The position numbers and the translations under genes are program-made. Below, piece after piece: positions 1,711-58,517 of a stretch of 64,000 nt of DNA (position 1 is its first letter; each line of letters begins with the position of its first letter). The stretch lies in the IMG/VR virus record IMGVR_UViG_3300037487_001316, positions 1-64,000 of that record. One strand, given 5' to 3'. The DNA comes from a virus. The notes below the pieces were generated by a model, which was given only the letters and a program-made list of their open reading frames with translations, did not search any database and was not told where the DNA came from.

Positions 1711-2178
1711 ATGATAAATACTTGTATAATGAATAATATTGAAGAAATTAATTTTAAAACTATATTACATATATGGAAAAACGAATTATGGCCCGGCAGA
1801 ATATCACCTATAGAAACGCATAGTGCTATGTTATATCTTCATAATCATGATATGAATAATTTTTCATTACCGAATTGGTACCATGGATGTTATATAGATA
1901 ACAAACTAATAGGAGTCAATAGTGGACATCTCTGTGTTAATAACAATGTAAGATCAAGAGGCCTATGGGTTTGCCCAGAATATCGTAAAAAAGGCTACGG
2001 AAAACAGTTATTATTGGCGACTGTAGACAAGGCAAAAACACTTAATGCGTCTTTTGTTTGGAGTTACCCACGGAAGTCATCCTGGGTGACATACAAATCT
2101 GTCGGATTCAAATTAACTACCGAATGGCAGAAAAGCGAGACAAGTGATGCGAATTGTTACTGTATACTAGATCTATGA
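1711..2178 (+). CDS. GNAT-family N-acetyltransferase
   Basis: About 155 residues. The acetyl-CoA binding motif A is visible as WVCPEYRKKGYGKQLL, and a later VGFKL matches the usual C-terminal GNAT strand. The frame is open upstream to 1648, but that region runs into the divergent PP-loop gene, so a start at 1711 or 1729 is preferred; neither has a clear Shine-Dalgarno sequence. The TGA stop overlaps the next start (ATGA). Substrate unknown; the context suggests acylation of a small molecule or a modified product. Confidence 0.7.
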   Translation: MINTCIMNNIEEINFKTILHIWKNELWPGRISPIETHSAMLYLHNHDMNNFSLPNWYHGCYIDNKLIGVNSGHLCVNNNVRSRGLWVCPEYRKKGYGKQLLLATVDKAKTLNASFVWSYPRKSSWVTYKSVGFKLTTEWQKSETSDANCYCILDL

Positions 2179-3110
2179 ATATTTACACATCCGAAGATAA
2201 TTGGTATAAATGGCGCTATAGTAATGGTCCACTTTTTGGCAGAAGAGAAAGAAATTTTAATTCATTGTTCGAGACGGAATATACCAAATATTACGGTCAG
2301 GTAGGCACCTTTAAAGAAGAATTACAGAAGGCAGCAAGAAGCACGCTAGATCATTTTCCTGGATTACGACCTTCTATATTATTCAGCGGAGGTATGGATA
2401 GCGAGGTTCTTTTAAGATCCTTTATTGATATTGGAGCAAATCCTGCTGTGTATGTTTTTAGATATGAAGATAATATAAATTATGAAGATGTGTTAATGGC
2501 AGAAACTGTATGTAGAAACTTGAAAATAAATTATAATATTATTGATTTTAAATTACAGAAATTCTTAGAGAATGAAGTAGAGAAGATATCAGAAGAGGCC
2601 GAAATAGATTATCCTACAGCCTTGACACATATGAAATTTTTTGAATTAGTTGATGGTTTGCCAATATTAGGTGGCGGCGACCAACGTTGGATAAGGAATA
2701 ATACCGATTACACTACAAGGGGTATATGGTCTGGGGTGTGCGACGAATTTGAGATAGGCTGGTCGAAATATATTCGACTACACAATTTACAGGCAGTAGC
2801 AGAATGGTATAAATGGAGTCCTGGATTAATAATATCATATTTAAGATTAAAATGGTTTAACGATTTAATCGATGATAAAATTTATGGTAAACTAAGTGTA
2901 AAATCAACCAAATATATCGGATATCAAACTGTGTATCCTGATATTATTGTAAGAAAGAAATTAACCGGATTTGAAACAATCCAGGATTTAGTTATAGAGA
3001 TTGAGGCAACACTTAAGGATAAATATTCCACCTTACCTTATCGAAATACATATAATAGAACTATAAATCAGGTATGTGAAGAACTGATAGGAGAACAAAA
3101 TGACAGTTGA
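2175..3110 (+). CDS. PP-loop ATP pyrophosphatase, paralogue 1
   Basis: A 311-residue protein with the N-type ATP pyrophosphatase motif SGGMDSE at about residues 71-77, the loop that binds ATP for substrate adenylation in QueC, asparagine synthetase B, TilS and related enzymes. The N-terminus (about 60 residues, aromatic, YKWRYSNGPLF) is shared loosely with the paralogues at 7552 and 8509. No glutaminase domain is present. The ATG at 2175 overlaps the GNAT stop and is preferred to the in-frame ATG at 2154. It overlaps the radical SAM gene by 11 bases. Substrate unknown. Confidence 0.75.
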   Translation: MNIYTSEDNWYKWRYSNGPLFGRRERNFNSLFETEYTKYYGQVGTFKEELQKAARSTLDHFPGLRPSILFSGGMDSEVLLRSFIDIGANPAVYVFRYEDNINYEDVLMAETVCRNLKINYNIIDFKLQKFLENEVEKISEEAEIDYPTALTHMKFFELVDGLPILGGGDQRWIRNNTDYTTRGIWSGVCDEFEIGWSKYIRLHNLQAVAEWYKWSPGLIISYLRLKWFNDLIDDKIYGKLSVKSTKYIGYQTVYPDIIVRKKLTGFETIQDLVIEIEATLKDKYSTLPYRNTYNRTINQVCEELIGEQNDS

Positions 3111-4653
3111 TATTTTATTATTTACAGATAATACACAAATACTATTTGTGAGATCTGCCGGTGCATACGCAGTTGCCACAACATTACGAGCTGCCGGTTA
3201 TAGCGTTCAGGTAGTAGATCATTTTTTATTACTGGGCGTGGAAAAAACACTGGCAATAATAGATAAATTTGTAGGGCCAAATACTTTATTTGTTGGATTC
3301 GGTACCACATTTATGAATCCAACATACAGACACCTTAAAGAGACCGAAGTTAATAATCAAATATTTACTTACGATGGCTATTGGACTACAACTTCAAATA
3401 GGAATATTTATGTTGACACCATAGCCTATAGAGTACCAATAAGCGATCCAGAGATGGATGCCATTAAAAATAGAATTACATCTATAAATTCGAAGACAAA
3501 ATTAGTAATCGGCGGATCTAAAGCAAATGACTTAAGACAGTCGCAAATGGATGTGTTTATTATCGGTTATGCTGAGCAGAGTGTTGTAGATTTCGCAAAG
3601 TATCTTCAGGGAAAAAATCCGTTTTTTCATTACAGAACTACACAAGCTGGTCAGATGATTGTTGATCACGATATTGATGCAAAAAATTATAATTTTTCAG
3701 AATCGGGTATAAGGTTTTCTTCAACAGACTTAATTGACAGTACAGAACTCTTACCGTTGGAGGTTGCTCGCGGTTGCATATTTAAGTGTAAATTTTGTTC
3801 GTTTCGACTCATCGGGAAGAAAAAGAATGATTACACAAAAACATTTGAGGCATTATATAGTGAGTTAATGTATAATTATGATAATTTTGGAGTAACAAGA
3901 TACACATTTGTTGACGATACATTAAATGAATCTATTTACAAACTTGACCATATATTAGGGGTGGTAAAAAAGTTACCATTTAAACTAGAAATTGCATCAT
4001 ACATAAGACACGATTTAATACATACCTATCCCGAGATGGCCGATATGTTATCTGAAATTGGATTAAAAGCGGCATGCTTTGGTATTGAATCTTTAAATCA
4101 TGAGACAGGAAAGCTTATTGGTAAGGGGTTGCATCCAGAAAAAACCAAAGAATTATTAACTTGGTTACGTAATGAAAAAAAATGGAAGAATAATATTCTT
4201 ATGTATTCGGGTTTTATAATAGGTTTACCTAAGGATACAGTAAATACGGTTACAACCTGGACAGAAGAAATATCGGACCCTAGTTATCCGCTAGATTCTG
4301 TCTATCTTATTCCATTAATGATGATTAGTGATTCTACTCGTTTAAAAAAATCAGAATTTGAGCTTAATTATGAGAAATATGGATACACGTACGAGACAGG
4401 TTCGACTGTTAGGTGGAAAAATAAAGACTGGACTTATGATAGTGCAACTGCCTTTGCAAAGAAATATACGCTCCGCAATTGGGAATCGAAACGAAATACT
4501 GTTACCTCATTTGCTTCTGTGGCATTAAGAAGTTATGGATATTCCTGGGAACAAATTTTTGCCATGCGTGAAAAGGATTATAATTGGCACAATATATTTC
4601 AGACGAACATTATTCGAACAAATACATATTATGATAACTTAATAGGAAATTAG
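3100..4653 (+). CDS. Radical SAM enzyme, B12-binding-like N-terminus
   Basis: A 517-residue protein. The N-terminal 200 residues look like a Rossmann B12-binding-type domain (LRAAGYSVQVVDHF, FVGFGTTF). The [4Fe-4S] cluster motif CxxxCxxC is in RGCIFKCKFCSF near residue 226, followed by a radical SAM barrel (FVDDTLNES, CFGIESLNHETGKLIGKG). It is not the short QueE type. It lies between two PP-loop genes with overlapping or 1-base junctions, so it is probably part of the same pathway. The reaction is unknown. Confidence 0.85.
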   Translation: MTVDILLFTDNTQILFVRSAGAYAVATTLRAAGYSVQVVDHFLLLGVEKTLAIIDKFVGPNTLFVGFGTTFMNPTYRHLKETEVNNQIFTYDGYWTTTSNRNIYVDTIAYRVPISDPEMDAIKNRITSINSKTKLVIGGSKANDLRQSQMDVFIIGYAEQSVVDFAKYLQGKNPFFHYRTTQAGQMIVDHDIDAKNYNFSESGIRFSSTDLIDSTELLPLEVARGCIFKCKFCSFRLIGKKKNDYTKTFEALYSELMYNYDNFGVTRYTFVDDTLNESIYKLDHILGVVKKLPFKLEIASYIRHDLIHTYPEMADMLSEIGLKAACFGIESLNHETGKLIGKGLHPEKTKELLTWLRNEKKWKNNILMYSGFIIGLPKDTVNTVTTWTEEISDPSYPLDSVYLIPLMMISDSTRLKKSEFELNYEKYGYTYETGSTVRWKNKDWTYDSATAFAKKYTLRNWESKRNTVTSFASVALRSYGYSWEQIFAMREKDYNWHNIFQTNIIRTNTYYDNLIGN

Positions 4654-12949: not shown

Positions 12950-12966
12950 AACTTTTGGAGAAAGTA

Positions 12967-13638
12967 ATGAAAAGAGTAATAGAAATTCGAGCCGCAGAGG
13001 GCGGCGAAGATAGCAAGCTATTTACGATAGATTTGGCGCAGGCCTATATCCGCATGGCCACTCGTGTTGGGTGAACTAACCGCCTGATAAATGAATGCTC
13101 GGGACAGATAGAGATAGAAGTTCAGGGTGTTGATTTATCTGATTTGGATAATGAATCTGGTGGTCTGAGGCTGCAACGATGTCCCCCGACCGAGCGGAAA
13201 GGTCGGGTACACACTTCTACAGTCACGGTGGCGATTATAGATCCGTCTATTCGTATACCTGTTGTTCAAGATGAAGACTTGAAAGTAGAATGGTACTCGG
13301 GCACCGGCGCCGGTGGTCAACATAAAAATAAAAAACAGTGCTCTTGTCGAATAACTCATATCTCCACAGGTGCAATTGCTACCGCACAAACCAGAGAAAG
13401 AACCAATAGTTATAAGTTAGCAAGAGCCGATATCGAAAAGCGTATTATCGAGCAGCAGGTAGCAATAGCAAATAAACATATATCCGTTGATCGAAAACAG
13501 CAGGTCGGTTCTGGTATGCGAGGCGATAAAGTAAGGACAATACGATTCCAAGATAATAGTGTGGTTGATCATATTACTGGGAAACGGACTACGGCTGAGA
13601 AGTTCATGAAGGGCAATATGGATCTACTTTGGCCATAA
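12967..13638 (+). CDS. RF1-like peptide chain release factor with in-frame TGA
   Basis: A 224-codon frame with SD GGAG 8 bases before the ATG. It has the class I release-factor start (EIRAAEGGEDSKLF), a codon-recognition loop CPPTERKGRVHTS with a PxT-type tripeptide (RF1 type, reading UAA/UAG, as opposed to SPF of RF2), and the catalytic loop GAGGQHKNK. The N-terminal domain of host RFs is missing, as in other short phage or rescue-type RFs. Codon 36 (13072-13074) is TGA, in the column where RF1 proteins carry Trp (AxRRW). The product needs readthrough or a corrected base; internal initiation at 13144 would lose the first part of the RF domain. Confidence 0.75.
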
Positions 13639-13829: not shown

Positions 13830-14048
13830 TTAATGTTTAGTGATATTACACCAGAGTATAGTATGAATTCGTTGATCTTATGTGGTAAGTATAGTATTAT
13901 AGAAACATACATATTGCAGTAGCTACACTGGAACACCGAAAGACTAATGCTTTAACCACTTTAACGTTGGTACAAGAGTTACTTAGGACCGGCCAGGAAG
14001 AGTAGGGCTACCGTGGATTCGAGCGCCACAATGTGTGTAAAAGAATTG

Positions 14049-14109
14049 TTGTAATCCCTTCGAAATGAAGGCAAGCAAGACGGGGATTCGAATTCCCCCA
14101 GGTCCACCA
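14049..14109 (+). ncRNA. ssrA: tmRNA acceptor piece (permuted tmRNA)
   Basis: A T-arm (GGGGA-TTCGAAT-TCCCC), the 3' acceptor strand CAGGTCC, discriminator A and an encoded CCA end at 14109, preceded by a CCTTC/GAAGG hairpin. Its acceptor partner GGGCCTG lies downstream at 14184, seven of seven pairs including one G-U. That order, 3' half before 5' half, is the circularly permuted arrangement of two-piece tmRNA. The 5' boundary is approximate. An alternative partner GGACCGG at 13986 pairs at six of seven positions. Confidence 0.55.
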
Positions 14110-14183
14110 TAAAGTATATTAGAAGCATAGGTCAAGCCCTGTCAAGTTGTAGTTTAGTGAAGAACGCTGGTATATTTTATAAT

Positions 14184-14400
14184 GGGCCTGCTCTGGTAAT
14201 CGATTGCGTGAGATAGTAGAGACGGCAACACGGTAGATGACGACCGTAAATCGCATAAAAATCGTAAATGCAAACGCATATACAACTGAGTCTTTTGTAG
14301 CTCTTGACCTTTCGGCTCTTGCTGATAGCGATATGGCTATGGAAATGGCTGCCTAAGAAACACCAACTCCGAGGTAGAAAGACCTTGTAACCAAACCAAT
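14184..14400 (+). ncRNA. ssrA: tmRNA coding piece with tag reading frame
   Basis: Begins GGGCCTG (acceptor 5' strand), then CTCTGGTAATCGA like the tmRNA D-region, a pseudoknot-like segment (ACGGT/ACCGT hairpin at 14230-14248), then an open tag frame from GCA at 14270 to TAA at 14354. The 28-residue tag starts ANAYTTES and ends MEMAA: Ala-Asn at the start and Ala-Ala at the end, as in tmRNA degradation tags, though unusually long. A hairpin (AGGT/ACCT) follows, then a terminator. The 74-base segment 14110-14183 would be the removed intervening sequence. Confidence 0.55.
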
Positions 14401-14401
14401 C

Positions 14402-14431
14402 AAAATAGGGATTTCGGTCCCTATTTTAATG
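14402..14431 (+). terminator. Terminator after tmRNA
   Basis: Perfect 10-bp hairpin AAAATAGGGA / TCCCTATTTT with a 6-base loop, ending in a T-rich arm. It separates the tmRNA from the porin promoter. Confidence 0.75.
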
Positions 14432-14441
14432 ATTATCAAAC

Positions 14442-14470
14442 TTGACAAACCAAAAATATCATTATATACT
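14442..14470 (+). promoter_or_regulatory. Sigma70 promoter of porin gene
   Basis: TTGACA at 14442, exactly 17 bases, then TATACT at 14465. Close to the bacterial consensus, so the porin can be read by unmodified host RNA polymerase early in infection. Confidence 0.8.
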
Positions 14471-14529: not shown

Positions 14530-15417
14530 ATGAAAAAATTAGTATTAGCGGCATTCTTAGCCGTGGCATCACTCGCAGCAACGGCTCAGGTCTCTGTTTA
14601 CGGGTTGGTTCGTGAATATGTTGACAACACTAAGGTAGGTAACACTACTGTTACTAGTATGGTTGATGACACAAGCCGTATTGGTTTCAAGGCAAACGAA
14701 GCACTCGGTAATGGTTTATCTGCTCGTGTAGTTGTTGAAACTGATTTTAGCGGCAATGATCCAGCATTAGGTGCAGACACTAAACTAGGAAATCGTCAAA
14801 GTACAGTTGGTTTAGCTTCAAAGAACGGCTCATTAGACTTAGGTCGTAAATTAAATAGTCACTTTTTAGCAATTACAAACAATGATGTATTTGATACAGA
14901 TTATGGTTCTATTGCAAGCGACATTCATAATGTTCGTACTGTCCGCAGCGGCAACGCAGTGTTCCTTAACTACAATTTAGGCCCAGCTTCGATTGCGTTT
15001 GATCGTACAGTAACTGGTGGCAATGAAGCAACTAGTTATAGCGGAACAGGTAAATTAGGTCCTGTTATTGCTACAGTAGCTCGCTTCGAACAAGGTGCAG
15101 CAAAGAGCACAGTATTAGCAGCACAAACAGCATATGCTGGTAATAAGTTATTCCTTAGCGCAAGTCAGGATGCCGATGTACTTGGTACAACACGCGGTAC
15201 CTTAGCAGGAATTGCTCTACCAGTATCGGGATTACCTTTAACTCTTAAAGGTTCGTATGGTGTAAAGACTAGCGATTTTGCTGCTAAGGTTAGCGCATAC
15301 GCAGTTGGTGCAGAATATGACTTATCTAAGCGTACTTCTGTAAATGTTGCTTTACGCAATGTTAGTGATACAGTTGATACACGCCAGTTCGGCCTAGGAC
15401 TATCACATAGTTTCTAA
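14530..15417 (+). CDS. Outer-membrane porin (Burkholderiales-like)
   Basis: A 295-residue protein with a signal peptide (cleaved after ATAQ or ATA) then VSVYGLVREYVDN, the typical first strand of Gram-negative porins of the beta-proteobacterial type. Further motifs are TSRIGFKANEALGNGLSARVVVETDF, a QSTVGL...LDLGRKL strand pair, and a last strand LGLSHSF ending in Phe for BAM recognition. It is slightly shorter than usual for the family (about 330-400). Flanked by its own sigma70 promoter, SD AAGGAAAT and a terminator. A phage-encoded porin could change host permeability or block superinfection. Confidence 0.85.
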   Translation: MKKLVLAAFLAVASLAATAQVSVYGLVREYVDNTKVGNTTVTSMVDDTSRIGFKANEALGNGLSARVVVETDFSGNDPALGADTKLGNRQSTVGLASKNGSLDLGRKLNSHFLAITNNDVFDTDYGSIASDIHNVRTVRSGNAVFLNYNLGPASIAFDRTVTGGNEATSYSGTGKLGPVIATVARFEQGAAKSTVLAAQTAYAGNKLFLSASQDADVLGTTRGTLAGIALPVSGLPLTLKGSYGVKTSDFAAKVSAYAVGAEYDLSKRTSVNVALRNVSDTVDTRQFGLGLSHSF

Positions 15418-17575: not shown

Positions 17576-17650
17576 GCCTTGTTAGCTTAGTGGAAAAGTA
17601 CAGGCCTCTAAAACCGTGGGTCATCGGTTCGATTCCGATACAAGGCACCA
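17576..17650 (+). tRNA. tRNA with CUA anticodon in canonical register, poor anticodon stem
   Basis: 75 bases with encoded CCA, a perfect acceptor (GCCTTGT/ACAAGGC), a D-stem and a perfect T-arm (ATCGG-TTCGATT-CCGAT). Standard numbering puts CTCTAAA in the anticodon loop, i.e. anticodon CUA (amber), but only two of five anticodon-stem pairs form. Either an amber-reading tRNA with a damaged stem or a decaying tRNA. TAG is used as a stop in this genome. Confidence 0.6.
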
Positions 17651-44262: not shown

Positions 44263-45015
44263 ATGTCCTCACAAATTACGCCGAGAGTTTTGTTAATGAA
44301 GCAAATCGAGCTACAGCTCGGTTCGCAAATGGTTGATGTTGAATTAGATGTCGAGCACTTAAATCTTGCAATTACAATTGGTATCCAGAAATTGCGTCAG
44401 CAATCAGATGGGGCTAATCTTGAGAAGGATATTTTTCTACACATTACACGGGACATAACGGAGTATACTCTTCCAGATGAGGTGCAAGAAGTTAGGCGTC
44501 TATACCGCCGTGGTGTTGGTGCATACACTAATGGTGGGGTAAATTTTGACCCGGTTGATGCTGCATTTTACAATATCTATTTGTTACAACCAAATAGATC
44601 AGGTGGATTAGCAACCTGGGATATGTATAATCAGTTCCTAGAAACCACAGAAAGATTATTTGCAAGTCAATTAAACTTTACATGGGATGTCAATTCACAT
44701 AACCTAACAATTATTCGTCGTCCAACAGCCGATGAAGAAGTTGTAGTTCGTGTGTATGCTAGTAAATCCGAAGATGACATATTGAATGACCCTTATACAG
44801 GTCCTTGGTTGCGTTCCTATTCTACAGCATATTCTAAATATATGCTAGGTGAGGCAAGAGATAAATTTCCGGGAGGATTTCCTGGACCAAACGGTAATGT
44901 TACGTTGAACGGTGCATCTCTTAAACAAGAAGCACAGACAGAGATGGATAAACTTGAATTACAACTTCAGAATCTAGTAACTTCATCGGATGGATATTCA
45001 TTCGTGATAGGTTAA
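44263..45015 (+). CDS. Neck protein, gp13-like
   Basis: A 250-residue protein (DVELDVEHLNLAITIGIQKLRQQSDG, TEYTLPDEVQEVRRLYRRGVG, YSTAYSKYMLGEARDKF) resembling neck/head-completion proteins of T4-like phages. Position before dNMP kinase and sheath is as in T4-like genomes. gp13 versus gp14 identity is not certain. Confidence 0.6.
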   Translation: MSSQITPRVLLMKQIELQLGSQMVDVELDVEHLNLAITIGIQKLRQQSDGANLEKDIFLHITRDITEYTLPDEVQEVRRLYRRGVGAYTNGGVNFDPVDAAFYNIYLLQPNRSGGLATWDMYNQFLETTERLFASQLNFTWDVNSHNLTIIRRPTADEEVVVRVYASKSEDDILNDPYTGPWLRSYSTAYSKYMLGEARDKFPGGFPGPNGNVTLNGASLKQEAQTEMDKLELQLQNLVTSSDGYSFVIG

Positions 45016-45047
45016 ATCCTATCACAAACTATTTGTAATTGGTTAAC

Positions 45048-45206
45048 ATGAAAAATAAAGAGTATCCTACAGATTTAAGGCATTTGCCTATTGAGGAACA
45101 GCGCAGAATTGCTCACGAAATGTTTGATAATATAAAGAGAAAATACGACCAACTTTTGGAAGATTTTCCCGAAATACAAGAAATATTGAGTAAAGAGAAA
45201 CATTAA
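45048..45206 (+). CDS. Small charged protein
   Basis: 52 residues, helical (HLPIEEQRRIAHEMFDNIKR). No clear SD. Not recognised. Confidence 0.45.
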   Translation: MKNKEYPTDLRHLPIEEQRRIAHEMFDNIKRKYDQLLEDFPEIQEILSKEKH

Positions 45207-45281
45207 AATTCCCTAACAAAATCATTTAACCCCTAAGCTGTCTCTGTATAACTACATAGACTTTAACTTAGGGGTTTTCTT

Positions 45282-45914
45282 ATGATTCTTGGCCTACTTG
45301 GATTTATTAATAGCGGAAAAGGCACGGTTGCATCGCAACTAGTTAGTGGATATAATTTCAGACAAGATAGTTTTGCAGCAGGTTTAAAAGATGCCTGTGC
45401 AGTAATGTTTGATTGGCCACGACATATGCTTGAAGGCGACACAAAAGAATCCCGAGAATGGCGAGAAATCGTTGACCCATGGTGGTCTGAACAATTAGGT
45501 ATGCCCAATTTCAGCCCAAGGCTTGCCTTACAGGTGATCGGGACAGATGTTATGCGTAATAATTTCCATCAAGATATGTGGTTCTTAACACTTCGTAATA
45601 GAATCCGTAAAAATCCTAATCAAAATGTAGTTATTAGCGATGTCAGATTTCCAAATGAAATAAAATTTATACAAGAACAAGGCGGCACTTTGATTAAAGT
45701 AAATCGTGGCCCTGCACCTGTTTGGTATGAAACGGCCATATTAGCGAATAAGGGAAATTCTATTGCTAAGGATGTAATGACTCAGACTTATTCAAATGCC
45801 CATCTTAGTGAATGGGCATGGGTGGGTTCTAAAATAGACTACGAGATAAATAACGACAGTAGTCTAGATTCCCTTGAAGGTCAGGTTCGGGAAGTGTTAT
45901 CCAATATATTGTAA
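45282..45914 (+). CDS. Deoxynucleoside monophosphate kinase, T4 gp1-like
   Basis: A 210-residue protein with a P-loop variant GFINSGKGTVA (residues 7-17), FAAGLKDA, LEGDTKESREWRE, RLALQVIGTDVMR and VISDVRFPNEI, all typical of phage dNMP kinases. It phosphorylates dNMPs from host DNA breakdown for phage replication. Confidence 0.85.
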   Translation: MILGLLGFINSGKGTVASQLVSGYNFRQDSFAAGLKDACAVMFDWPRHMLEGDTKESREWREIVDPWWSEQLGMPNFSPRLALQVIGTDVMRNNFHQDMWFLTLRNRIRKNPNQNVVISDVRFPNEIKFIQEQGGTLIKVNRGPAPVWYETAILANKGNSIAKDVMTQTYSNAHLSEWAWVGSKIDYEINNDSSLDSLEGQVREVLSNIL

Positions 45915-45952
45915 TATTGGTTTTTGTTTGTCGTATATTTAATGGCCTTCTA

Positions 45953-45960
45953 GATAAATA
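45953..45960 (+). promoter_or_regulatory. Late promoter of tail sheath
   Basis: GATAAATA 40 bases upstream of the sheath ATG; SD AGGAGTT. Confidence 0.65.
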
Positions 45961-46000
45961 CTAGCAACAAGAAGTAATATCTTCATAGGAGTTAAATTAT

Positions 46001-48763
46001 ATGGCAGTTTTAGTATCCCCAGGCGTAAGCGTATCAGTTATCGATCAGAGCATTAATGTTGGTGCCGGTCCAGGAACAGTTCCGCTAATTTTTATCGCCA
46101 CACAAGAGAATAAATCTACCCCAGACGGATCTGCAGTTGCCGTAGGTACAACCAAGGCAAATGCTGGTGTAGTTTGGTCTATCACTTCTCAGAGAGATTT
46201 GGTACAGACATTCGGCGATCCAACTTTCTATTCAGTAAGTGGCACATCGTTAAATGGTTATCCGTTGAACGAATATGGTCTACTTGCAGCTTATTCATAT
46301 TTAGGTATTTCTAATCTATGTAGAGTTGTTAGAGCAGATGTTAATACAGCACAATTAGAACCAACACCTATTGAGCCAACAAGCCCTGCAGCAACAGGTA
46401 CATATTGGCTCGATGAATCCTCGAGTGGTTCTTCATATGGCTTGTTTGTTCGTTCTGGTATATTCCCTAATGAAATATGGACTACCATAACACCGACATT
46501 TGTATTATCAAGCGCGCCGACAGCAGGTACAGGTGTTGTGGGTGATTATGCAGTAGTATTTCTAACAGCAACCGGCGCATTATCGTATTGGGTAAAGGTT
46601 TCGAGTACGGTATGGGCACAGCTAGGTGATAATACTTATACGTCTGTAGCAGGCGCAATTTCTTCAGGCACCACTGTGACAGTAAGTACAACTGCTGGAT
46701 TAAAAGTAGGTATGGTTCCGGAAGTTACTGCAGGTACAGGCATATTTGCTGCAGGTACAACTATCACAAATGTTTCTTTAGATGGTATGACATTTACTGT
46801 ATCGGCAACACCTTCTGTTGCTTTATCGGGCGGTGGATCAATAATTAAAGCAGGATTTGGGGTTGCTATTCAATCTGTATGGCCTGATTTAACAAGTGCT
46901 TCATTAACTGAAGAGTTTTGGGTTAAAACAACATCAGCAGCACAAGGTGCAAATCTTGTATTAAGAAAGATGAGCGCATCAACTGAATCGTTTATTCAAG
47001 TTGAAGCACCGATTTTAGCGGATGATGCAGCGGCTAATACATATTACGGTGCGAATGCAGCTGGTTCAGCAGGTCAGATTTATATCGAACCTGTGTCAAC
47101 AGGTGCTGATCCGATATCACTAACTGACTCATTAAGATTTAACTTAGGTGCGACTGCAACTACCTGGGCACCATTAGAAACTATCATAGATTCGGCTTCT
47201 GTTCCAACTCAAGGTCCTGATAACGGTCAACTATGGTTTAATGCCTTACTAGGTTTAAATGATAATGCTGAATCTACTATAGATATTTTAATTGCAGACG
47301 GTATCGGTGCTTGGCAGAATATTAATCTTCCTGGATTTACTTATACAGTATTACCGGGATCGCCTACATTGTATCCACAACCAGCTGATCCACAAGATAA
47401 CGTTCCTGCCCCTTCATTGGCAACGGGCGATATCTGGGTAAACACTGACGCTGCTCCATATCCGGTTATTAGCCGTTGGAATGGCGCTGTTTGGGTTCTG
47501 GTAGATAATACAGATGAAACAACACCAAACGGTATTGTATTCCAGGATGCTCGTCCAAACCCAATGTACCATGATGGTACATATTCCGGTGAAAATAACG
47601 AAGGTGGATCAAATCCTGACTTAGATCCTGATGCTCCACAGGCTGCATTGTATCCTAAGGGATTCTTATTGTGGAATACACGTTACTCAACTAACAATGT
47701 TAAGGTATGGGAAGCACCGTATGTATTTGATGGTGTAACTGCAGAACCAGATGATACAAACAATGGTTCAACAGGCCGTTGGTCATCAACATCTGGTAAT
47801 AATCCAGGCGGCGTACCTTACATGGGCGCAGCAGCACAACAAATTGTTATCGTGAAAGGTATTCAATCTGCTATTATTTCTAATGAAGATATTCGCGCAG
47901 AAGACTTGTATTTTAACTTAATTGCTGCTCCAGGTTTTGTTGAAGCAATTGACGAAATGCTTGTACTAAACGACGATCGTAAGGATACAGCGTTTGTGGT
48001 CGGTGATACACCGTTTACATTGAGTTCCACTGGAACATCATTACAGAATTGGGCAACAAATCATAGCTCTGCATTCGGTAATGGTGCTGACGGCCTTACA
48101 TCAGCAAGTAAGTATTTTAGTGCTTGGTATCCAAGTGGTTTAAGTACTAACGTTGATGGAACTGACGTAGTTGTTCCACCATCACATATGGCATTACGCA
48201 CTATCGCTTATAATGATCAAGTTGCTTATCCTTGGTTCGCTCCAGCAGGTTTACAACGTGGTGTTGTTAATAATGCGGCAGCAGTTGGATATGTTAACGC
48301 ATCTGGACAGTTTGTTTCAGTTAAATTGAATGAAGGCCAGCGCGATATCTTATATCAAAACGGTATTAATCCGATTCGCGTTATGCCACAAGGCGGTATT
48401 GTAGTGTTTGGACAAAAGACACGTCAGCCTTACGCAAGCGCAACAGATCGTATCAATGTAGTTCGTTTAGAAAACTATCTACGTTATATGTTAAACAACT
48501 TAGCACAACCGTTCTTGTTTGAGCCTAATGATACAACAACACGTAAATCAGTGAAAGACGCATTTGATAGAGCTCTATCGGAACTTATCACATTACGCGG
48601 TTTATATGACTTCTTGGTTGTTTGCGATTTAAGCAACAATACACCGGCTCGTATCGACAGAAACGAACTATGGATTGATGTAGCAATTCAACCAGTTAAG
48701 GCAATCGAATTCATCTATATTCCAATCAGAATTAAGAATACAGGTGCAAGTTTATCAGCTTAA
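46001..48763 (+). CDS. Tail sheath protein, gp18-like
   Basis: A 920-residue protein. The N-terminus VLVSPGVSVSVIDQS and the C-terminal half (RAEDLYFNLIAAPGFVEAIDEML, AYPWFAPAGLQRG, NGINPIRVMPQGGIVVFGQKT, FEPNDTTTRKSVKDAFDRAL) are typical contractile sheath. It is about 260 residues longer than T4 gp18 (659); residues about 130-480 hold Ser/Thr/Ala-rich beta domains, probably surface-exposed. Own terminator downstream. Confidence 0.92.
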   Translation: MAVLVSPGVSVSVIDQSINVGAGPGTVPLIFIATQENKSTPDGSAVAVGTTKANAGVVWSITSQRDLVQTFGDPTFYSVSGTSLNGYPLNEYGLLAAYSYLGISNLCRVVRADVNTAQLEPTPIEPTSPAATGTYWLDESSSGSSYGLFVRSGIFPNEIWTTITPTFVLSSAPTAGTGVVGDYAVVFLTATGALSYWVKVSSTVWAQLGDNTYTSVAGAISSGTTVTVSTTAGLKVGMVPEVTAGTGIFAAGTTITNVSLDGMTFTVSATPSVALSGGGSIIKAGFGVAIQSVWPDLTSASLTEEFWVKTTSAAQGANLVLRKMSASTESFIQVEAPILADDAAANTYYGANAAGSAGQIYIEPVSTGADPISLTDSLRFNLGATATTWAPLETIIDSASVPTQGPDNGQLWFNALLGLNDNAESTIDILIADGIGAWQNINLPGFTYTVLPGSPTLYPQPADPQDNVPAPSLATGDIWVNTDAAPYPVISRWNGAVWVLVDNTDETTPNGIVFQDARPNPMYHDGTYSGENNEGGSNPDLDPDAPQAALYPKGFLLWNTRYSTNNVKVWEAPYVFDGVTAEPDDTNNGSTGRWSSTSGNNPGGVPYMGAAAQQIVIVKGIQSAIISNEDIRAEDLYFNLIAAPGFVEAIDEMLVLNDDRKDTAFVVGDTPFTLSSTGTSLQNWATNHSSAFGNGADGLTSASKYFSAWYPSGLSTNVDGTDVVVPPSHMALRTIAYNDQVAYPWFAPAGLQRGVVNNAAAVGYVNASGQFVSVKLNEGQRDILYQNGINPIRVMPQGGIVVFGQKTRQPYASATDRINVVRLENYLRYMLNNLAQPFLFEPNDTTTRKSVKDAFDRALSELITLRGLYDFLVVCDLSNNTPARIDRNELWIDVAIQPVKAIEFIYIPIRIKNTGASLSA

Positions 48764-48780
48764 TAACAGCTTAATAGAAG

Positions 48781-48809
48781 ATACCGGGTTAATTGCCCGG
48801 TATTTTTTT
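48781..48809 (+). terminator. Terminator after sheath
   Basis: ATACCGGG / CCCGGTAT, 8 bp, 7-base loop, then seven T. Confidence 0.88.
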
Positions 48810-48812
48810 GGC

Positions 48813-48820
48813 GATAAATA
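48813..48820 (+). promoter_or_regulatory. Late promoter 6 bases before protease ATG
   Basis: GATAAATA ends 6 bases before the ATG at 48827 and right after the sheath terminator; the mRNA would be leaderless and no SD is present. Confidence 0.55.
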
Positions 48821-48826
48821 TCCCAT

Positions 48827-49498
48827 ATGACTATATTACCATCTGCCGTCTCATTAAGAAAATACATAGATTATGTTCAACCTCAAGAAAATGTAGGATG
48901 CTGTACATCATGTGCTGTCTTATTAGCCGCAGAAATTATATCAGCAATAGCAGGTCATAAGATAAATTTTTCCAGATTATACCTATATTATATGACTCGA
49001 AAAGCGCAGAATAGATTAGGTCAGCATGGTGCAGAATTAAAAGAGACATTAAATGCATTGGTAGAGAACGGAGTACCGTTAGATAAATCCTGGCCGTTTA
49101 CTTTGCATAGAGTCGATATAAGGCCGTCTCGAGCAGCCATGGAAGAGGCGATTTCGTATAGACAATTTTCCTATCAGATATTAACACCTGGTGATTATAA
49201 AAATTATCTGAATCTAGGTATTCCCATAATAATCGGGTTAAAGACAGGTAAACTTTTCTGGGAATTAAGTGGTGAACTTAGCGAGCAAGCATATAAACCG
49301 ATAAATAATAAAGATAACAGGGAATCTAATGGTCATGCTGTGACTATTATAGGGTATGATGATACTCTGAATGGCGGATCTTGGATTATAGCAAATTCTT
49401 TAGGATTAAGATGGGGTAGTCAAGGTTTCGGGGCTATACCTTATATATGCAACAATGATATATGTGAATCTTATGCTATTACCTATTTGCCAAAATAA
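48827..49498 (+). CDS. Papain-like (C1A-type) cysteine protease
   Basis: A 223-residue protein. Catalytic Cys in NVGCCTSCAVLLAAEI (about 24-39), His in NGHAVTIIGYDD (about 168) and Asn in WIIANSLGLRWGSQGF (about 189): the Cys-His-Asn order of papain-fold peptidases. No signal peptide or propeptide. It lies between sheath and tube, so tail or head maturation is possible. Confidence 0.8.
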   Translation: MTILPSAVSLRKYIDYVQPQENVGCCTSCAVLLAAEIISAIAGHKINFSRLYLYYMTRKAQNRLGQHGAELKETLNALVENGVPLDKSWPFTLHRVDIRPSRAAMEEAISYRQFSYQILTPGDYKNYLNLGIPIIIGLKTGKLFWELSGELSEQAYKPINNKDNRESNGHAVTIIGYDDTLNGGSWIIANSLGLRWGSQGFGAIPYICNNDICESYAITYLPK

Positions 49499-49524
49499 CC
49501 GCCGATAAAAAATTTCGGAAATTT

Positions 49525-49532
49525 GATAAATA
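49525..49532 (+). promoter_or_regulatory. Late promoter of tail tube
   Basis: GATAAATA 29 bases upstream of the tube ATG; SD AGGAGAAA. Confidence 0.65.
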
Positions 49533-49561
49533 GTATTAGCTTTTATAGCAGGAGAAAAAAG

Positions 49562-50179
49562 ATGGCAAATGCACAACCAACAATAGCCAAATTCGGTATA
49601 CCGTTAAATGGTAACAAACTTGGTATTTTACAACCTAAACAGAAATATCGTTTTAGAGTGATTTGGACAAATTTCGGTGAAAATAGAGACCCTAACCAAA
49701 TGACAGCCAGTGTAATGACTTGTACCCGTCCTAAAATTACATATGACGAAGTTAAATTAGATTCATATAATTCTGTAGCATGGATTCAGGGTAAACACAG
49801 TTTTGAAACAATTGAAATTAAATTACGTGACGATATTACAAACTCAGTAGTTTCCTCGGTCGGTGCTCAAGTTCAGAAACAAATGAATCACTTTGAACAG
49901 ACAAGCGCATCAGCAGGTATTAATTACAAGTTTAGTATGGAAATTCATTCGTTGGATGGTACAAATAACGAAGAACTAGAATCATGGTTCCTAGAAGGTT
50001 GCTGGATTAATTCGGCAGCATACAGCGATGGTGATTACGCTAGTGGAGATCCTCAAGAAGTTACATTAACAATTCGTTATGATAATGCAACAAATATTGC
50101 AGGTACTGATCAAGCATACGGTGGTACTGATCCATACCCAAGTACACCAAGCCCAACTGGTGGTACTACTTTCGCTTAA
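49562..50179 (+). CDS. Tail tube protein, gp19-like
   Basis: 205 residues from the ATG at 49562 (MANAQPTIAKFGIP). FRVIWTNFG, SVMTCTRPKITYDEVKLDSYNS and WIQGKHSFETIEIKLRDDITNSV are typical T4-type tube strands. Ends in a Pro/Ser/Gly tail. Polymerises as the inner tube within the sheath. Confidence 0.88.
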   Translation: MANAQPTIAKFGIPLNGNKLGILQPKQKYRFRVIWTNFGENRDPNQMTASVMTCTRPKITYDEVKLDSYNSVAWIQGKHSFETIEIKLRDDITNSVVSSVGAQVQKQMNHFEQTSASAGINYKFSMEIHSLDGTNNEELESWFLEGCWINSAAYSDGDYASGDPQEVTLTIRYDNATNIAGTDQAYGGTDPYPSTPSPTGGTTFA

Positions 50180-50202
50180 TTTCGAAAGTTTGGAGGTGGC
50201 TT

Positions 50203-51432
50203 ATGGCTAACTCGAGCGCAAATAATGGCGGGAAATTCTATTATGAAAAGAGTTCCCGCCATGCTTCTTATAATTTCAATCAATCAGGGCAATCTTTATT
50301 TGTAAATCAGCCTCGGTTTCCGTTTGAGTATTATATCAATATTAATTTGAATAATGTTACAACAGCAACTACGTTTATTTCTGAATTTTTTCTTCCTGAT
50401 GATCTAAAACAAATCATGCCACTTGTTAAGACTGTCGACATGCCAGCCTTTAAGATTGAAACTACGCCATTAAATCAGTATAACAGAAAACGATTGAGTC
50501 AGACAAAGATAGCATTTGAACCAGTTAAAATGGTATTTCATGATGTTGCCGATGGTAAGACCTTAAAATTCTGGGATATGTATTATAGATACTATTTTGC
50601 CGATGGTATTGAACCGGGTATGAATTACGATAAGCCGATTCCGCAAATTGGTGGAACTTACTATACAGAACCAACGGGTGCGGCCGGCGGCCAGAGTACA
50701 GCAGATTTTGCTGCTACAGACCCTAGAAGATTAGATCTAGCAAGTGGATCAGCGACAAATACAAACGGTGATAAGAAAGCACTTCAAAATATTGTATCAG
50801 ATACACTGGATAATCATAATTTTGGTTTTAATTTACCCACTGTGCAGAATGTAAGAAATTTAATTCAATCCATAGACATATATCAGGTACATGGCGGCCG
50901 TTTCAACCAAGTTACATTAGTAAATCCCAGAATCTCAGCATTCACACATGATGTATTAAATTATGCATCAAGTGATAAGACTCTTGAAATGACATTTGTG
51001 TTTGAATATGAATATGCATTTTATACAATACAAAATATGGAATTAGGTAATCCGGGTAATCAGTCAAATAACAATTCGACTATAGAGCAATTTGAGCATG
51101 GTAATTTTTTAGAATTACCCACACTTTCGTTTAAAAGATTTGATCCGGCTTATGTTGAATCAAAAAATCCTTCCCCAGCTTTTACTGCTAATTCTGGTTC
51201 ACAAAACATAGGAAATAATACGCAAGCTTCATTAAGTTCGGTGAAGAGTCAGTATGTAGATACAAATGTGCCAGTAAGAACAAGTTCTAGTTCGTTAGGT
51301 GGGATGGTAGATGTAACACCTGGCCCGGCTAACATACCGTTTACTCCTAATATACAGACTAGACCATTTAACTCTGAAGCAACACCTAATACAACAATGT
51401 ACCCCGATATGAATCGTATAGGCGGTGTATAA
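50203..51432 (+). CDS. Tail tube-like / baseplate-associated protein
   Basis: A 409-residue protein with a tube-like core (FPFEYYININLNN, VKTVDMPAFKIETTPLNQYNRKRLSQ, FNQVTLVNPRISAFTHDVLNY) and an extended Ser/Asn/Pro-rich C-terminus. Probably a tail-tube initiator or cap relative; exact T4 counterpart not assigned. SD GGAGG. Confidence 0.6.
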   Translation: MANSSANNGGKFYYEKSSRHASYNFNQSGQSLFVNQPRFPFEYYININLNNVTTATTFISEFFLPDDLKQIMPLVKTVDMPAFKIETTPLNQYNRKRLSQTKIAFEPVKMVFHDVADGKTLKFWDMYYRYYFADGIEPGMNYDKPIPQIGGTYYTEPTGAAGGQSTADFAATDPRRLDLASGSATNTNGDKKALQNIVSDTLDNHNFGFNLPTVQNVRNLIQSIDIYQVHGGRFNQVTLVNPRISAFTHDVLNYASSDKTLEMTFVFEYEYAFYTIQNMELGNPGNQSNNNSTIEQFEHGNFLELPTLSFKRFDPAYVESKNPSPAFTANSGSQNIGNNTQASLSSVKSQYVDTNVPVRTSSSSLGGMVDVTPGPANIPFTPNIQTRPFNSEATPNTTMYPDMNRIGGV

Positions 51433-51902
51433 TGGCTAATTCACTTTCGTCAATTGGCCGATTTAGTTCTCAGATGCTTACCTATCTGGGTACGCAAAGA
51501 ACTGTTAAGATAGTACCGGGCAGTATAGATAATACATTTAAGTATGCTACAGGAACCACTGTATTTCCTAACCCGGGTTCCATATCTCAAGCAGCATTAG
51601 GTGCAGGCGTTGTTGGCAATTATTCAGCGGCAACATATAATTCAACCAAGTGCTATTTTTTATCACGTGGTGCGACGCAGGTATATGCTGATACAATGAC
51701 CGGCTTAACAATAGATATAGCAAACATGTTGGGTATATCTACAGCAAATTTATTAGTACAATCCGAAGTTAATGGTGTAACGACATTGACACCCGATGCA
51801 TACAGATCTTTTAACATGCTCAGAGATACCGGTAATCAGGTAGGCACAGCTACTAGTGTTAATAATAGATACAGTCTCCAGTCTAGGCAAATAAGGTCTT
51901 AA
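51432..51902 (+). CDS. Hypothetical virion protein
   Basis: 156 residues, Ser/Thr/Gly-rich, starting at the last base of the preceding stop. Contains MTGLTIDIANMLGISTANLLVQSE, possibly a peptidoglycan- or tail-tip-associated fold. Not recognised. Confidence 0.5.
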   Translation: MANSLSSIGRFSSQMLTYLGTQRTVKIVPGSIDNTFKYATGTTVFPNPGSISQAALGAGVVGNYSAATYNSTKCYFLSRGATQVYADTMTGLTIDIANMLGISTANLLVQSEVNGVTTLTPDAYRSFNMLRDTGNQVGTATSVNNRYSLQSRQIRS

Positions 51903-52340
51903 ATGAGATCCTATGTACAAGGCCAGTATAAACCTATAAATCCTAACAAATATGTAGGGACTTATCCTATAATCTTTCGTTCTTCGTGGGAACATAAAGT
52001 TATGGTAATGTTTGATACAAACCCAAATATATCGAGTTGGGCAAGTGAATCCTTAAAAATCCCCTATCAAAATCCATTCACTGGTAAGTATACTGTGTAT
52101 GTGCCTGATTTTGTAGTTACTTATGTGGATGCTAAAGGTAATCAAAAAGCAGAGATTATTGAAGTAAAGCCAGCCAAGGAGACTTTCTTAGAACAAGCAA
52201 AGTCCCAACAGGCTAAGGCAGCGGTCGCATTGAATACTTTCAAGTGGGCAGCAGCACAAGCATTTGCGAAGCATCAGGGCATGACGTTCAGGGTTATGAA
52301 CGAAGGTAATATTTTTAATAACCCGAAAGGTAGAGCCTGA
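51903..52340 (+). CDS. Head completion protein, gp4-like
   Basis: 145 residues: RSSWEHKVMVMFDTNPNISSWASE, YVPDFVVTYVD and IIEVKPAKE give the E...PD...E-x-K nuclease pattern of T4 gp4-type head completion proteins, which trim or seal packaged DNA ends. Abuts neighbours without gap. Confidence 0.8.
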   Translation: MRSYVQGQYKPINPNKYVGTYPIIFRSSWEHKVMVMFDTNPNISSWASESLKIPYQNPFTGKYTVYVPDFVVTYVDAKGNQKAEIIEVKPAKETFLEQAKSQQAKAAVALNTFKWAAAQAFAKHQGMTFRVMNEGNIFNNPKGRA

Positions 52341-52846
52341 TGACTAAGAAAATGGAAGATTTTTTCAACTTACCTCCCACTGAAAAGCCGGCGGTGGAAG
52401 AAGAGTTGCCTACAAAATCTAGAGAGCAACTAATGATCGAAGCTACTGAAATTAATAACGCACTTACTACTGCAGAAAAGATAGATTTCGCATTACCCGT
52501 GGTTGTCGGCCTCGAATCGCACGATAACGAGATGGATGAAGTTGCTAAACGTGCGATGGCAAAATTTGAGGATCTTTGCGATTTAGGCGGTAATGTACCT
52601 GACATGCACGCTGGGAAGATCTTTGAAGTAGCGGCACAATTTCTTAAGATAGCAGCAGATTCTAAGATATCTAAAGCAGATAAGAAATTAAAGATGATTG
52701 ATCTTCAACTCAAGAAAGTTCGTTCAGAACAAATAGATTTAGAACAGGGCAACGGTGATAAACGTCAACTAGGTGGCGGAGAATTCGATAGAAACGAACT
52801 TCTAAAATATATAGTGTCCAGTAAATCAGAAAACTCTGATAAATAG
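52340..52846 (+). CDS. Terminase small subunit, gp16-like
   Basis: 168 residues (T4 gp16 is 164): a central helical pair (KRAMAKFEDLCDLGGNVPDMHAGKIFEVAAQFLKIAADSK) typical for T4-like small terminases and a basic C-terminus. Starts on the last base of the gp4 stop. Confidence 0.78.
   Translation: MTKKMEDFFNLPPTEKPAVEEELPTKSREQLMIEATEINNALTTAEKIDFALPVVVGLESHDNEMDEVAKRAMAKFEDLCDLGGNVPDMHAGKIFEVAAQFLKIAADSKISKADKKLKMIDLQLKKVRSEQIDLEQGNGDKRQLGGGEFDRNELLKYIVSSKSENSDK
52838..52845 (+). promoter_or_regulatory. Late promoter motif
   Basis: GATAAATA over the end of the gp16 gene, 22 bases upstream of the gene at 52868; a short ATAGT/ACTAT pair spans the SD GGAG. Confidence 0.55.
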
Positions 52847-52867
52847 TCGTAACACTGGAGTCACTAT

Positions 52868-53533
52868 ATGGCAGAAAAGAAATCATTTACCTCATATGTT
52901 GCAGATGCAAAGACAGACTATAATTATGTCTTGAAATTTGCAGTGCATGAAATGACCGACGACATGATTGATATGCTCGAATCGTGCTTAAAGAAATACG
53001 ATCTAAAATCAGCATCCTCGTTTAGAAAAACACCTATACAAGAAAGTCCGCTAGATTTTCCTAATATAAAAAATACAGCCGTATTTATTTGTGATTTAAA
53101 GCTTGGCTATCCCGGCTCACTAGATTTCCTTAGAACTTATATCTGTAATAATTTGGGAATTTCCCCACAGCAATTAGCTGTATATTCTGAAAACGATCCA
53201 CGTCAAATTGAGACAGATTTATACCTAGATAGAAATTCTCCAGAATACAAGAAGAAATATAAAACACGCCTTGGCAGCGATCCAGATGATACTGAAACAG
53301 TACCATATGGTGCAGCATATAACACTGATTTCCTAAAGGCTCTTGATAAAGTTAGCAAGGAACGTCAGTCCACAATAGTAATAAATCCGTTAAGTCCAGC
53401 AGAGACAATCGATCATACTACCTTAACAAAGGGGTATGATAGTTTCAATGATCCTAAGAATTTAAAGAAAGACGATTTAGGACTGTTCGGCCGTGTTAAA
53501 AAGCCTAGTCTAACTAGAGCAGGAGTCCTATAA
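52868..53533 (+). CDS. Hypothetical protein in packaging operon
   Basis: A 221-residue protein (YNYVLKFAVHEMTDDMIDMLESCLKKYDL; QLAVYSENDPRQIETD). The position between gp16 and gp17 suggests a head or packaging role. Shares one base with the next start. Not recognised. Confidence 0.6.
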   Translation: MAEKKSFTSYVADAKTDYNYVLKFAVHEMTDDMIDMLESCLKKYDLKSASSFRKTPIQESPLDFPNIKNTAVFICDLKLGYPGSLDFLRTYICNNLGISPQQLAVYSENDPRQIETDLYLDRNSPEYKKKYKTRLGSDPDDTETVPYGAAYNTDFLKALDKVSKERQSTIVINPLSPAETIDHTTLTKGYDSFNDPKNLKKDDLGLFGRVKKPSLTRAGVL

Positions 53534-55107
53534 TGAATTTACAAAGAATGAAACAATTAGCCGGTATTAAGCTTAACGAAGGTGTTGTAGCTATTCCCGG
53601 CGTCGGTCAAGGCAGTGAGTCTAACATGCAAACCGCTGGGACAGTGGGGCGCAATCAAGCTTATGCAGCATACGATGCATCACAGCAACTTGATGAGCTA
53701 GTACGAGTAGGCTCAAATATAGATCCGAAGTCCGGTCGAGTTGCCCCCGACAATGCTGAAGGAAATCCTGATCTGTATAGAAAAAGTAAAGGAACTCAAG
53801 ACTCCAGGACTTGGCGCGATTCTACAGCAAGTGCTATGCGGGCCGCCCGAAAAAATCCTGCAAATAAAGGGGTAAAAGCAGATCAAGAAGGCTATACTTC
53901 TATGAAGTCGGGACAGGATGCTCTAGGAAATTCAAGGAAATTTTCTGACCGGCCTGAAGTACAACTGTCGGTACATCGACGCCCGAGTATGGAGAGTAAA
54001 ACACTAGATGAAAAATCTACCTCTGAAAAACAAGCAAGATTTATGGCTGCCGCAGCACATAATCCTGCATTTGCTAAAAGAGCAGGAATAGATGCAGGCG
54101 TAGCAAAAGAATTCAACAAGGCCGATACTGGCACCTCACAACTTAGTAATGCTATGAAACATAAGACAGAAGAGGGTCTAGGACAGTGGGTTAAAGATAA
54201 GGCTCGTGAAGTATTTAATACTCCTGATAAAAATGGAAATGTAAATTGGTCTAACGGTATGGGTAAGACTACTAAAGCACCTGGAGTAACTCAAGATAAA
54301 TTATCAAAGAATCCTATTAGTCCTGATAGAATGAGCGAAGAAGTAAAGAAGAGCGAGATTCCTGCAGTTCAGCGAAAGGCTGCACAACCGCAGGGGAATT
54401 GGAATATGTCGACTGCTGATTTGAAGCAAGAAAATCCATCAAATAAAGAATGGATGGATCAACGTGCTCAGCAAGTTGGTATTAAACCACGTACTCAAGC
54501 AGATGAGGGTGAAATGTTTCACCCAGATCATGATGCTGTGCATGGTGCAATGTCTGATTCGGATTATAATCAACATCAAGAAATGCAGCAGGATGCACGT
54601 GATGCATTTAACGACTATGTAAGAGGATATCTAACACAGCATTATTCAGCTGATTCTAGATTTTCCGATGACGAAGTTAGCGAGGTGGCCGCTGCTATGG
54701 GTTGTGATGAAGGCGAAGTATGGCAGGCTATGGAAGATATGGGCTTATTAGATGGCAGTGATAGCGAACCCGGTGAAGGCGGCCCTGACAATTATATGGA
54801 TGATGCCGAAGCCTTAGCAAGTGCTGGTCATGGATCTGATGAAGATTACGGCGATTACGGCAATGATGAATTTGAAGAAGCATTAGATTTAAATAATGGC
54901 TACGGTGGCACTAAAGCTGATGGTGAAGATTTCTTCCCTGATGGTGCAGATAGTCCTGTTGTAGATAATGTTGGACCGTCAGGTTCCCGTCAGGGCGATA
55001 ATCCAGAGCAGAAGAAGATGCAGGTTGCAGAAGTTCATAAAGAATTAGTCTATGGTTACAGAAATTATCTAAAAGAATCGGCCTTAACAGCCAAAAAAAA
55101 AAGTTAA
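53533..55107 (+). CDS. Large hypothetical head-operon protein (0-frame product)
   Basis: A 524-residue, low-complexity, acidic protein starting MNLQRMKQLAGIKLNEG. It has a charged helical centre and an Asp/Glu/Gly-rich end (EDYGDYGNDEFEEALD), possibly scaffold- or core-like. It stops 5 bases after a run of ten A (55093-55102), where a -1 shift would continue into the frame of 55203-55604. Confidence 0.6.
   Translation: MNLQRMKQLAGIKLNEGVVAIPGVGQGSESNMQTAGTVGRNQAYAAYDASQQLDELVRVGSNIDPKSGRVAPDNAEGNPDLYRKSKGTQDSRTWRDSTASAMRAARKNPANKGVKADQEGYTSMKSGQDALGNSRKFSDRPEVQLSVHRRPSMESKTLDEKSTSEKQARFMAAAAHNPAFAKRAGIDAGVAKEFNKADTGTSQLSNAMKHKTEEGLGQWVKDKAREVFNTPDKNGNVNWSNGMGKTTKAPGVTQDKLSKNPISPDRMSEEVKKSEIPAVQRKAAQPQGNWNMSTADLKQENPSNKEWMDQRAQQVGIKPRTQADEGEMFHPDHDAVHGAMSDSDYNQHQEMQQDARDAFNDYVRGYLTQHYSADSRFSDDEVSEVAAAMGCDEGEVWQAMEDMGLLDGSDSEPGEGGPDNYMDDAEALASAGHGSDEDYGDYGNDEFEEALDLNNGYGGTKADGEDFFPDGADSPVVDNVGPSGSRQGDNPEQKKMQVAEVHKELVYGYRNYLKESALTAKKKS
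55093..55102 (+). other. A10 slippery run, candidate -1 frameshift site
   Basis: GCC followed by ten A then GTTAA. The 0 frame ends at the TAA at 55105; the -1 frame reads on without stop into the ORF at 55203, which has no good start of its own. Either programmed slippage or a homopolymer length error (A11). Confidence 0.6.
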
Positions 55108-55202
55108 ATGAAAATCAACAGGTCTCTGATATATCTATAAACGATTATTACGGAGACTTTAATGTTTCTACTGACAGTATTGACTACGATAGTACTATTA
55201 GC

Positions 55203-55604: not shown

Positions 55605-55606
55605 TC

Positions 55607-57181: not shown

Positions 57182-57192
57182 CGGACAGATAA

Positions 57193-57200
57193 GATAAATA
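57193..57200 (+). promoter_or_regulatory. Late promoter motif
   Basis: GATAAATA 20 bases upstream of the ATG at 57221; SD AAGGA. Confidence 0.6.
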
Positions 57201-57220
57201 AGAGAAACAAGGATTTGTAT

Positions 57221-58510: not shown

Positions 58511-58517
58511 GAAGTTC

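Follow-up and report, generated by a model that had tools for sequence, protein, structure and literature searches.

In the 64,000-nucleotide (nt) stretch of viral DNA analyzed here, hereafter the window (positions 1 to 64,000 of IMG/VR record IMGVR_UViG_3300037487_001316), a short release-factor (RF) gene of the RF1 type carries a single in-frame UGA at the position where RF1 proteins have a tryptophan. The stop codon is kept among the relatives of this gene, with coding selection flanking it on either side, which is the pattern of a readthrough site. Probably, an additional RF1-type factor is made by programmed in-frame readthrough of this UGA whenever the capacity for termination, above all that of RF2, runs short. 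A switch of translation state had been proposed in a first-pass annotation made from the letters alone; such a switch is likely, with readthrough and not a shift as its step, and we infer the readthrough itself, the insertion of tryptophan, the sensing of RF2, the feedback and the codon specificity from sequence comparisons.

A short RF1-type factor with an in-frame UGA

The gene encodes 223 residues, ends in UAA and has the TGA of codon 36 as its sole internal stop. Translation and Pfam searches (PCRF 60.4 bits, cut-off 24; RF-1 53.8 bits, cut-off 35) bear out the frame, Shine-Dalgarno sequence, GGQ motif, PxT-type loop and TGA described in the first pass, whereas its naming of the product as an RF1 holds only in part. 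Among sequences of solved structures, RF1 is matched best (E 6e-35), ahead of RF2 (5e-18) and PrfH (3e-6), RF1 models score about twice as high as RF2 models, and an AlphaFold2 model with tryptophan at residue 36 (mean predicted local distance difference test, pLDDT, 88.8) was matched by Foldseek to ribosome-bound RF1 (TMq 0.80-0.86). The recognition set of the window factor is likewise that of RF1 (PxT, a Q two residues ahead, and HTS), and the presence of GGQ and a PxT loop in an RF fold marks it as a class-I factor of the RF1 type. However, the NCBIfam RF1 match falls short of the cut-off of 400 bits with a score of 161.6 and starts at model position 107, and domain 1 is therefore absent from the short factor. 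Judged from its sequence and predicted fold, the product is an RF1-like short factor, not a full RF1. In established RF1 structures the PxT/HTS set goes with the reading of UAA and UAG, and the short factor would be expected to share this specificity. Within the viral record of 134,154 bp it is the only release factor detected.

In an alignment to the T. maritima RF1 crystal sequence, codon 36 falls on the tryptophan of 'RKGWNLEV', in agreement with the position assigned initially. Of 374 relatives detected in IMG/VR with a profile, the best 80 were retained, which show 59-65% amino-acid identity to the window; in 80 of these 80, far more than chance would give, TGA falls exactly at codon 36 and no second internal stop is present. 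A second search seed added more divergent members with an identical TGA pattern, and over the distinct sequences of the in-frame type codon 36 is TGA in 92 of 92 and TGG in none. The viral sequences are metagenome assemblies throughout; some loci are one contig retrieved twice, and distinct-sequence counts were applied where relevant. With the window as reference, the Nei-Gojobori ratio of nonsynonymous to synonymous differences (pN/pS) is 0.26 over codons 2-35 and 0.29 over codons 37-96, so that both the part before and the part after the UGA are maintained as protein. The absence of the part upstream of the TGA from homologues had been named in the first pass as a refuting observation; this is not borne out, since the relatives keep that part under purifying selection.

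These data bear on two other explanations of the internal stop. The window copy is somewhat divergent, with a long end branch in a tree of 97 sequences, as might be expected if the TGA came from an assembly error, a local mutation or the decay of a pseudogene. Such an origin is hardly credible, as TGA stands at this codon in bacterial genomes as well as in assemblies made independently for many sites, and selection holds on either side of it; sequencing error or a pseudogene was rejected on the universal UGA in the clade and the pN/pS of ~0.26-0.29. Alternatively, translation could stop at the UGA and begin anew downstream, where a 164-codon open frame with a TTG start (13144-13638) is found, leaving the C-terminal part or the pair functional. 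This is very unlikely, since purifying selection is similar on either side of the UGA, the protein has one PCRF domain, the codon always lies at the RF1 tryptophan position, and relatives using a frameshift (see below) fuse both parts into one protein. With the part after the UGA alone as a query against viral contigs, no relative was confirmed; the alignment query worked.

Genetic code, hairpin and base context

UGA is an ordinary stop codon in this phage, terminating 36 of the 161 open reading frames (ORFs) of the 134-kb genome; among the neighboring ORFs of relatives, those ending in UGA number 152 of 460 for the window's group and 23 of 114 for a group of huge phages. ARAGORN detected no tRNA with a UCA anticodon in the 134-kb record; in the flanks of relatives, every tRNA-Trp gene has a CCA anticodon. 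Genome-wide recoding was ruled out by the use of UGA as an ordinary stop and the lack of a UGA-reading tRNA, and a suppressor tRNA by the absence of the UCA anticodon from the 134-kb record and from the tRNAs in the flanks of relatives. When the whole record was scanned for genes with a short start that runs through an in-frame UGA into a long open stretch, the release-factor gene was the only clear case, the remaining matches mostly adjoining ordinary gene starts. The idea that the phage tolerates UGA readthrough in general is not supported, given the frequency of UGA stops, the missing tRNA and the lack of any other clear gene of this kind. Separately, a tRNA at window 17576-17650 has an enlarged anticodon loop (ARAGORN reading 'ctaa') that holds CUA after U, so that an amber-reading tRNA is possible; a comparably odd tRNA ('ccta') can be found at one locus of the huge-phage group.

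Synonymous variation is unusually low at codons +1 to +9 and +19 to +23 after the UGA. The consensus fold of 37 sequences has a 15-pair stem (columns 11-29 with 54-72) with its onset 7 nt 3' of the UGA. Over 74 distinct sequences, 93.0% of the stem cells are paired, as compared with 86.7 ± 0.5 after shuffling and 28-43% when the columns are slid by 1-3; two-sided changes affect 72 cells versus 19.7 ± 5.1 in shuffled alignments, a value reached by 0 of 500 shuffles, and the covariation score is 0.301 versus 0.197 ± 0.009. The shuffle controls leave relatedness in, and the slid-column controls remove part of it. RNAalifold gave -7.63 for 68 sequences, against -0.66 ± 1.03 for column shuffles; the 84 nt 5' of the UGA are also low in energy in this test (z -5.9), via a single short 4-bp hairpin. 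The window's own hairpin has -18.6 kcal/mol (z -1.7 to -2.2), and in the subgroup L110-L116 a strong hairpin with another sequence lies at roughly this place.

A hairpin shortly 3' of a UGA could also be a selenocysteine insertion sequence (SECIS)-like element directing the decoding of UGA as selenocysteine. This is most improbable for a site that is tryptophan in RF1 and a hairpin that is not universal and whose apical loop is large and variable; neither the window nor 20 relatives gave a match to a selenocysteine RNA element of Rfam.

The base following the in-frame UGA is A in 66, G in 23, C in 3 and U in none of the 92 sequences. UGA-U accordingly accounts for 0 of 92 stops at the in-frame site versus 38 of 156 neighboring UGA stops, kinship being uncorrected. 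In the huge-phage clade, the stops at the site termed position C are UGAA (12), UGAC (9) and UAGC (4), and UGAU is found in 12 of 23 neighbors. With phylogeny uncorrected, this bias in the sequences fits selection against strong termination. With the avoidance of U and a hairpin that covaries across most of the clade, the site has, though not universally, the putative stimulatory context and 3' structure of a readthrough site.

Table 1. Features of the short release-factor gene; positions are those of the window.
Feature	Position	Strand	Basis
Shine-Dalgarno-like GGAG, 6 nt ahead of the ATG	12957..12960	+	sequence
Short release-factor gene of the RF1 type (domains 2-4 present, domain 1 absent) with a single in-frame UGA inside	12967..13638	+	translation, Pfam, structure alignment
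35-codon leader, the product if ribosomes stop at the UGA; start of the PCRF domain	12967..13071	+	pN/pS 0.26
In-frame UGA at the RF1 Trp position, context UGA-A; kept in all 92 distinct sequences	13072..13074	+	relatives, alignment
RNA hairpin, putative readthrough stimulator (13086-13092 with 13133-13139, 13094-13100 with 13125-13131)	13086..13139	+	covariation and window fold
PPT codon-recognition tripeptide (RF1 PxT type)	13183..13191	+	translation and alignment
GGQ peptidyl-hydrolase motif	13312..13320	+	translation

Related factors in phages and bacteria

Short factors with an internal stop can be found beyond the window's own group. In relatives from huge phages (L002, L004-L006), the corresponding stretch contains either one or two in-frame UGAs, distributed over three sites, at one of which UAG is present in L129, L143 and L145. 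In L143 and L145, a single RF gene contains two in-frame stops, UGA and then UAG at most 10 codons on. In a third clade, comprising phages and Myxococcota, the homologous site is bridged by a +1 frameshift, with the cassettes CUU UGA C (25), CUU UGA G (9) and CUU UAG (7), mostly an SD-like purine stretch upstream, and mostly an RF1-type PPT loop. Because this sister clade has the cassette of prfB at the homologous site, it is the stop that recurs and the way past it that differs. Stops at the sites of the family are UGA or UAG, and no UAA was seen. In the 97-sequence tree, a quick maximum-likelihood tree with a short search and Shimodaira-Hasegawa-like approximate likelihood-ratio test (SH-aLRT) values only, support is 98 for the short-factor superfamily, 99 for the in-frame clade to which the window belongs, 98 for the huge-phage clade and 96 for the frameshift clade. 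The mode changes at least 7 times across this tree.

The in-frame type can also be found in bacteria, namely in Jiella sp. LLJ827 (L199), a Rhodospirillales assembly (L198) and Rhodovibrio sodomensis (L200). The copies of L199, next to RNase H, redoxin and AlgH-like genes, and of L198, next to prolyl oligopeptidase and carbamoyl-phosphate synthase genes, look chromosomal, and longer RF1-like and RF2-like frames are present in all five bacterial genomes searched. Among 397 genomes of Jiella's order, the in-frame type was found in the Jiella genome itself alone, and none was found among 300 genomes of another order, where the query had no positive control; on these counts the chromosomal copies look sporadic. 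As a tentative generalization, for which the odds are slightly less than even, a single site would have been bridged in evolution either by +1 frameshifting of the prfB type or by in-frame readthrough, mostly of UGA and at times of UAG, the RF1-type product acting as a cross-factor sensor of RF2 failure that is phage-borne and resident in some bacterial chromosomes.

In Patescibacteria/Microgenomates (L230, L233, L235), RF1-like frames free of internal stops seem to begin close to the start of domain 2 and are possibly RF1 without domain 1. In Novimethylophilus (L223), a kinase-phosphatase-ligase RNA-repair gene (1720-3933; AAA_33, Metallophos, RNA_lig_T4_1) has a short RF gene directly downstream, an arrangement that recalls the pairing of PrfH with RtcB and, by this analogy, hints at a link with ribosome repair in that branch.

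In the window, a transfer-messenger RNA (tmRNA) gene matching the permuted and betaproteobacterial tmRNA models of Rfam lies just downstream of the RF gene (14000-14447), and permuted tmRNAs lie within ~2 kb of the RF gene in divergent relatives (L063, L068, L089, L093-L097, L103). The tmRNA gene of the window is adjoined by a gene for a Gram-negative outer-membrane porin (14530-15417; Porin_4, E 2e-23). The tmRNA model match and the porin hint at a Gram-negative, perhaps betaproteobacterial, host. The window also encodes an NMT1/TAXI-like periplasmic binding protein (25331-26275) and an RNA ligase with a PHA02142 OB-fold (oligonucleotide/oligosaccharide-binding) domain (26784-27839), and a GOLLD RNA is located upstream of the window-type RF gene of L112 (1137-1599). 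A nucleotide search of phage records with window 45000-62000 gave no match.

Proposed mechanism and comparison with known systems

In bacteria, UGA is read by RF2, and by default host RF2 would terminate at codon 36, a 35-residue peptide being the only product. When RF2 is scarce or saturated, as could be the case late in infection, termination at UGA would be slow and a near-cognate tRNA, most likely tRNA-Trp, would decode the codon and restore the native tryptophan, assisted by the downstream hairpin and the non-U fourth base. The full-length factor would terminate at UAA and UAG, relieving RF2 of UAA work and freeing it for UGA, which would close a negative loop via the shared UAA codon. 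As quoted in PMC7918605, mutations of prfB in B. subtilis raise UGA readthrough from 6% to 19-54%. Since RF2 defects raise UGA readthrough, a shortage of RF2 is expected to let more ribosomes pass a UGA that has a weak context and a hairpin after it.

Several observations weigh against this mechanism. A factor with a PPT loop should not read UGA, so that feedback on UGA must be indirect; L007, L149 and L163 have no internal stop at all; roughly one sequence in four has UGA-G; the tmRNA-linked subclade shows a weak hairpin (L089), and in the huge-phage clade no RNA structure was detected 3' of position C. Because of the last two observations, the hairpin looks like a frequent aid for readthrough rather than a strict requirement.

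The main rival explanation has the same architecture. In it, the short factor, its PPT loop notwithstanding, would itself read the in-frame stop that interrupts its gene, which is UGA and in some members UAG, as in the self-repression of RF2. Such direct autoregulation would agree with the prevalence of UGA despite RF1-type loops in the in-frame and frameshift clades alike, as in prfB; the recognition residues vary in some members, e.g., GRxQTS for GRxHTS, and the members with UAG would be cases of ordinary RF1-type self-repression. It is nevertheless unlikely considering the RF1 recognition set of the window factor, for which UAA/UAG reading is expected, and its roughly twofold higher scores with RF1 models. 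The restriction of the internal stops to UGA and UAG fits both direct autoregulation and readthrough under RF2 shortage, because UAA would be terminated by both host factors.

Taking readthrough under RF2 shortage as the preferred explanation, four known systems can be compared. As in the RF2 frameshift of prfB, an early in-frame UGA would tie the synthesis of a class-I release factor to slow UGA termination, and the sister clade uses the CUU UGA cassette with an SD-like element. Unlike in prfB, the window gene keeps one frame across the UGA and no shift is needed, as the first-pass annotation had stated; its factor is of the RF1 type and lacks domain 1, and the stop lies in domain 2 and not in domain 1. 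UAG also occurs in the short-factor family, whereas 0 of 8,164 prfB motifs had UAG in a 2025 survey (PMC12421855).

PrfH (RFH) is likewise a class-I release factor without domain 1, but membership was rejected at 39.1 bits (cut-off 166.65), compared with 161.6 for the RF1 models. RtcB was not seen among the neighbors scanned, which were part of those in the window and at six bacterial loci, and the described PrfH genes are uninterrupted ORFs (PMC1586002). Phages using code 4 also have their own RF1-type factor in a UGA-related setting, but with UGA recoded genome-wide and a suppressor tRNA and tryptophanyl-tRNA synthetase (TrpRS) (PMC10746230), whereas here UGA is an ordinary stop and the RF gene is the only clear case of a UGA in frame.

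The nearest precedent is the eRF1 of mimivirus (R726) and megavirus (mg280), for which the readthrough of UGA and, after it, a shift at CUU UAG/UAA C were tested experimentally (Jeudy et al., 2012; PMC3521657). There too, a viral class-I release factor requires UGA to be read through, probably as tryptophan. In contrast to the phage family, which is of the bacterial RF1 type, is found in many phages and some bacteria and has a covarying hairpin, this is a eukaryotic eRF1, an unrelated protein, known from two viruses of an amoeba host and requiring two obligatory events within one gene.

According to sections 29 and 45 of the review by Atkins et al. (2016; PMC5009743), no case was known of an RF2 gene that is interrupted early by a UGA and goes on in the same frame, nor of the UAG counterpart in RF1. 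The same review gives regulatory readthrough replacing the RF2 frameshift as unknown in any organism, noting one giant-virus release factor, namely the eRF1 of mimivirus and megavirus, and in these sections specialists had predicted in-frame control and found none in bacterial-type release factors. A paper on huge phages (PMC7162821) reports RF1 and RF2 genes, and the passages found in it do not mention an internal stop. No report of a short RF family with in-frame stops was found in the open-access literature searched, subscription papers and preprints lying outside the search. The family, with ~90 distinct sequences, appears to be the missing bacterial-type case. While stop-codon-controlled synthesis of release factors is known, what would be new here is in-frame readthrough in factors of the bacterial type.

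The hairpin signal is open to mutational testing, and a copy of the gene exists in a sequenced bacterial isolate. If confirmed, the short factor would be a natural sensor of termination capacity, and readthrough and frameshifting would be interchangeable solutions at one site. It would also suggest that termination turns limiting during infection by large phages.
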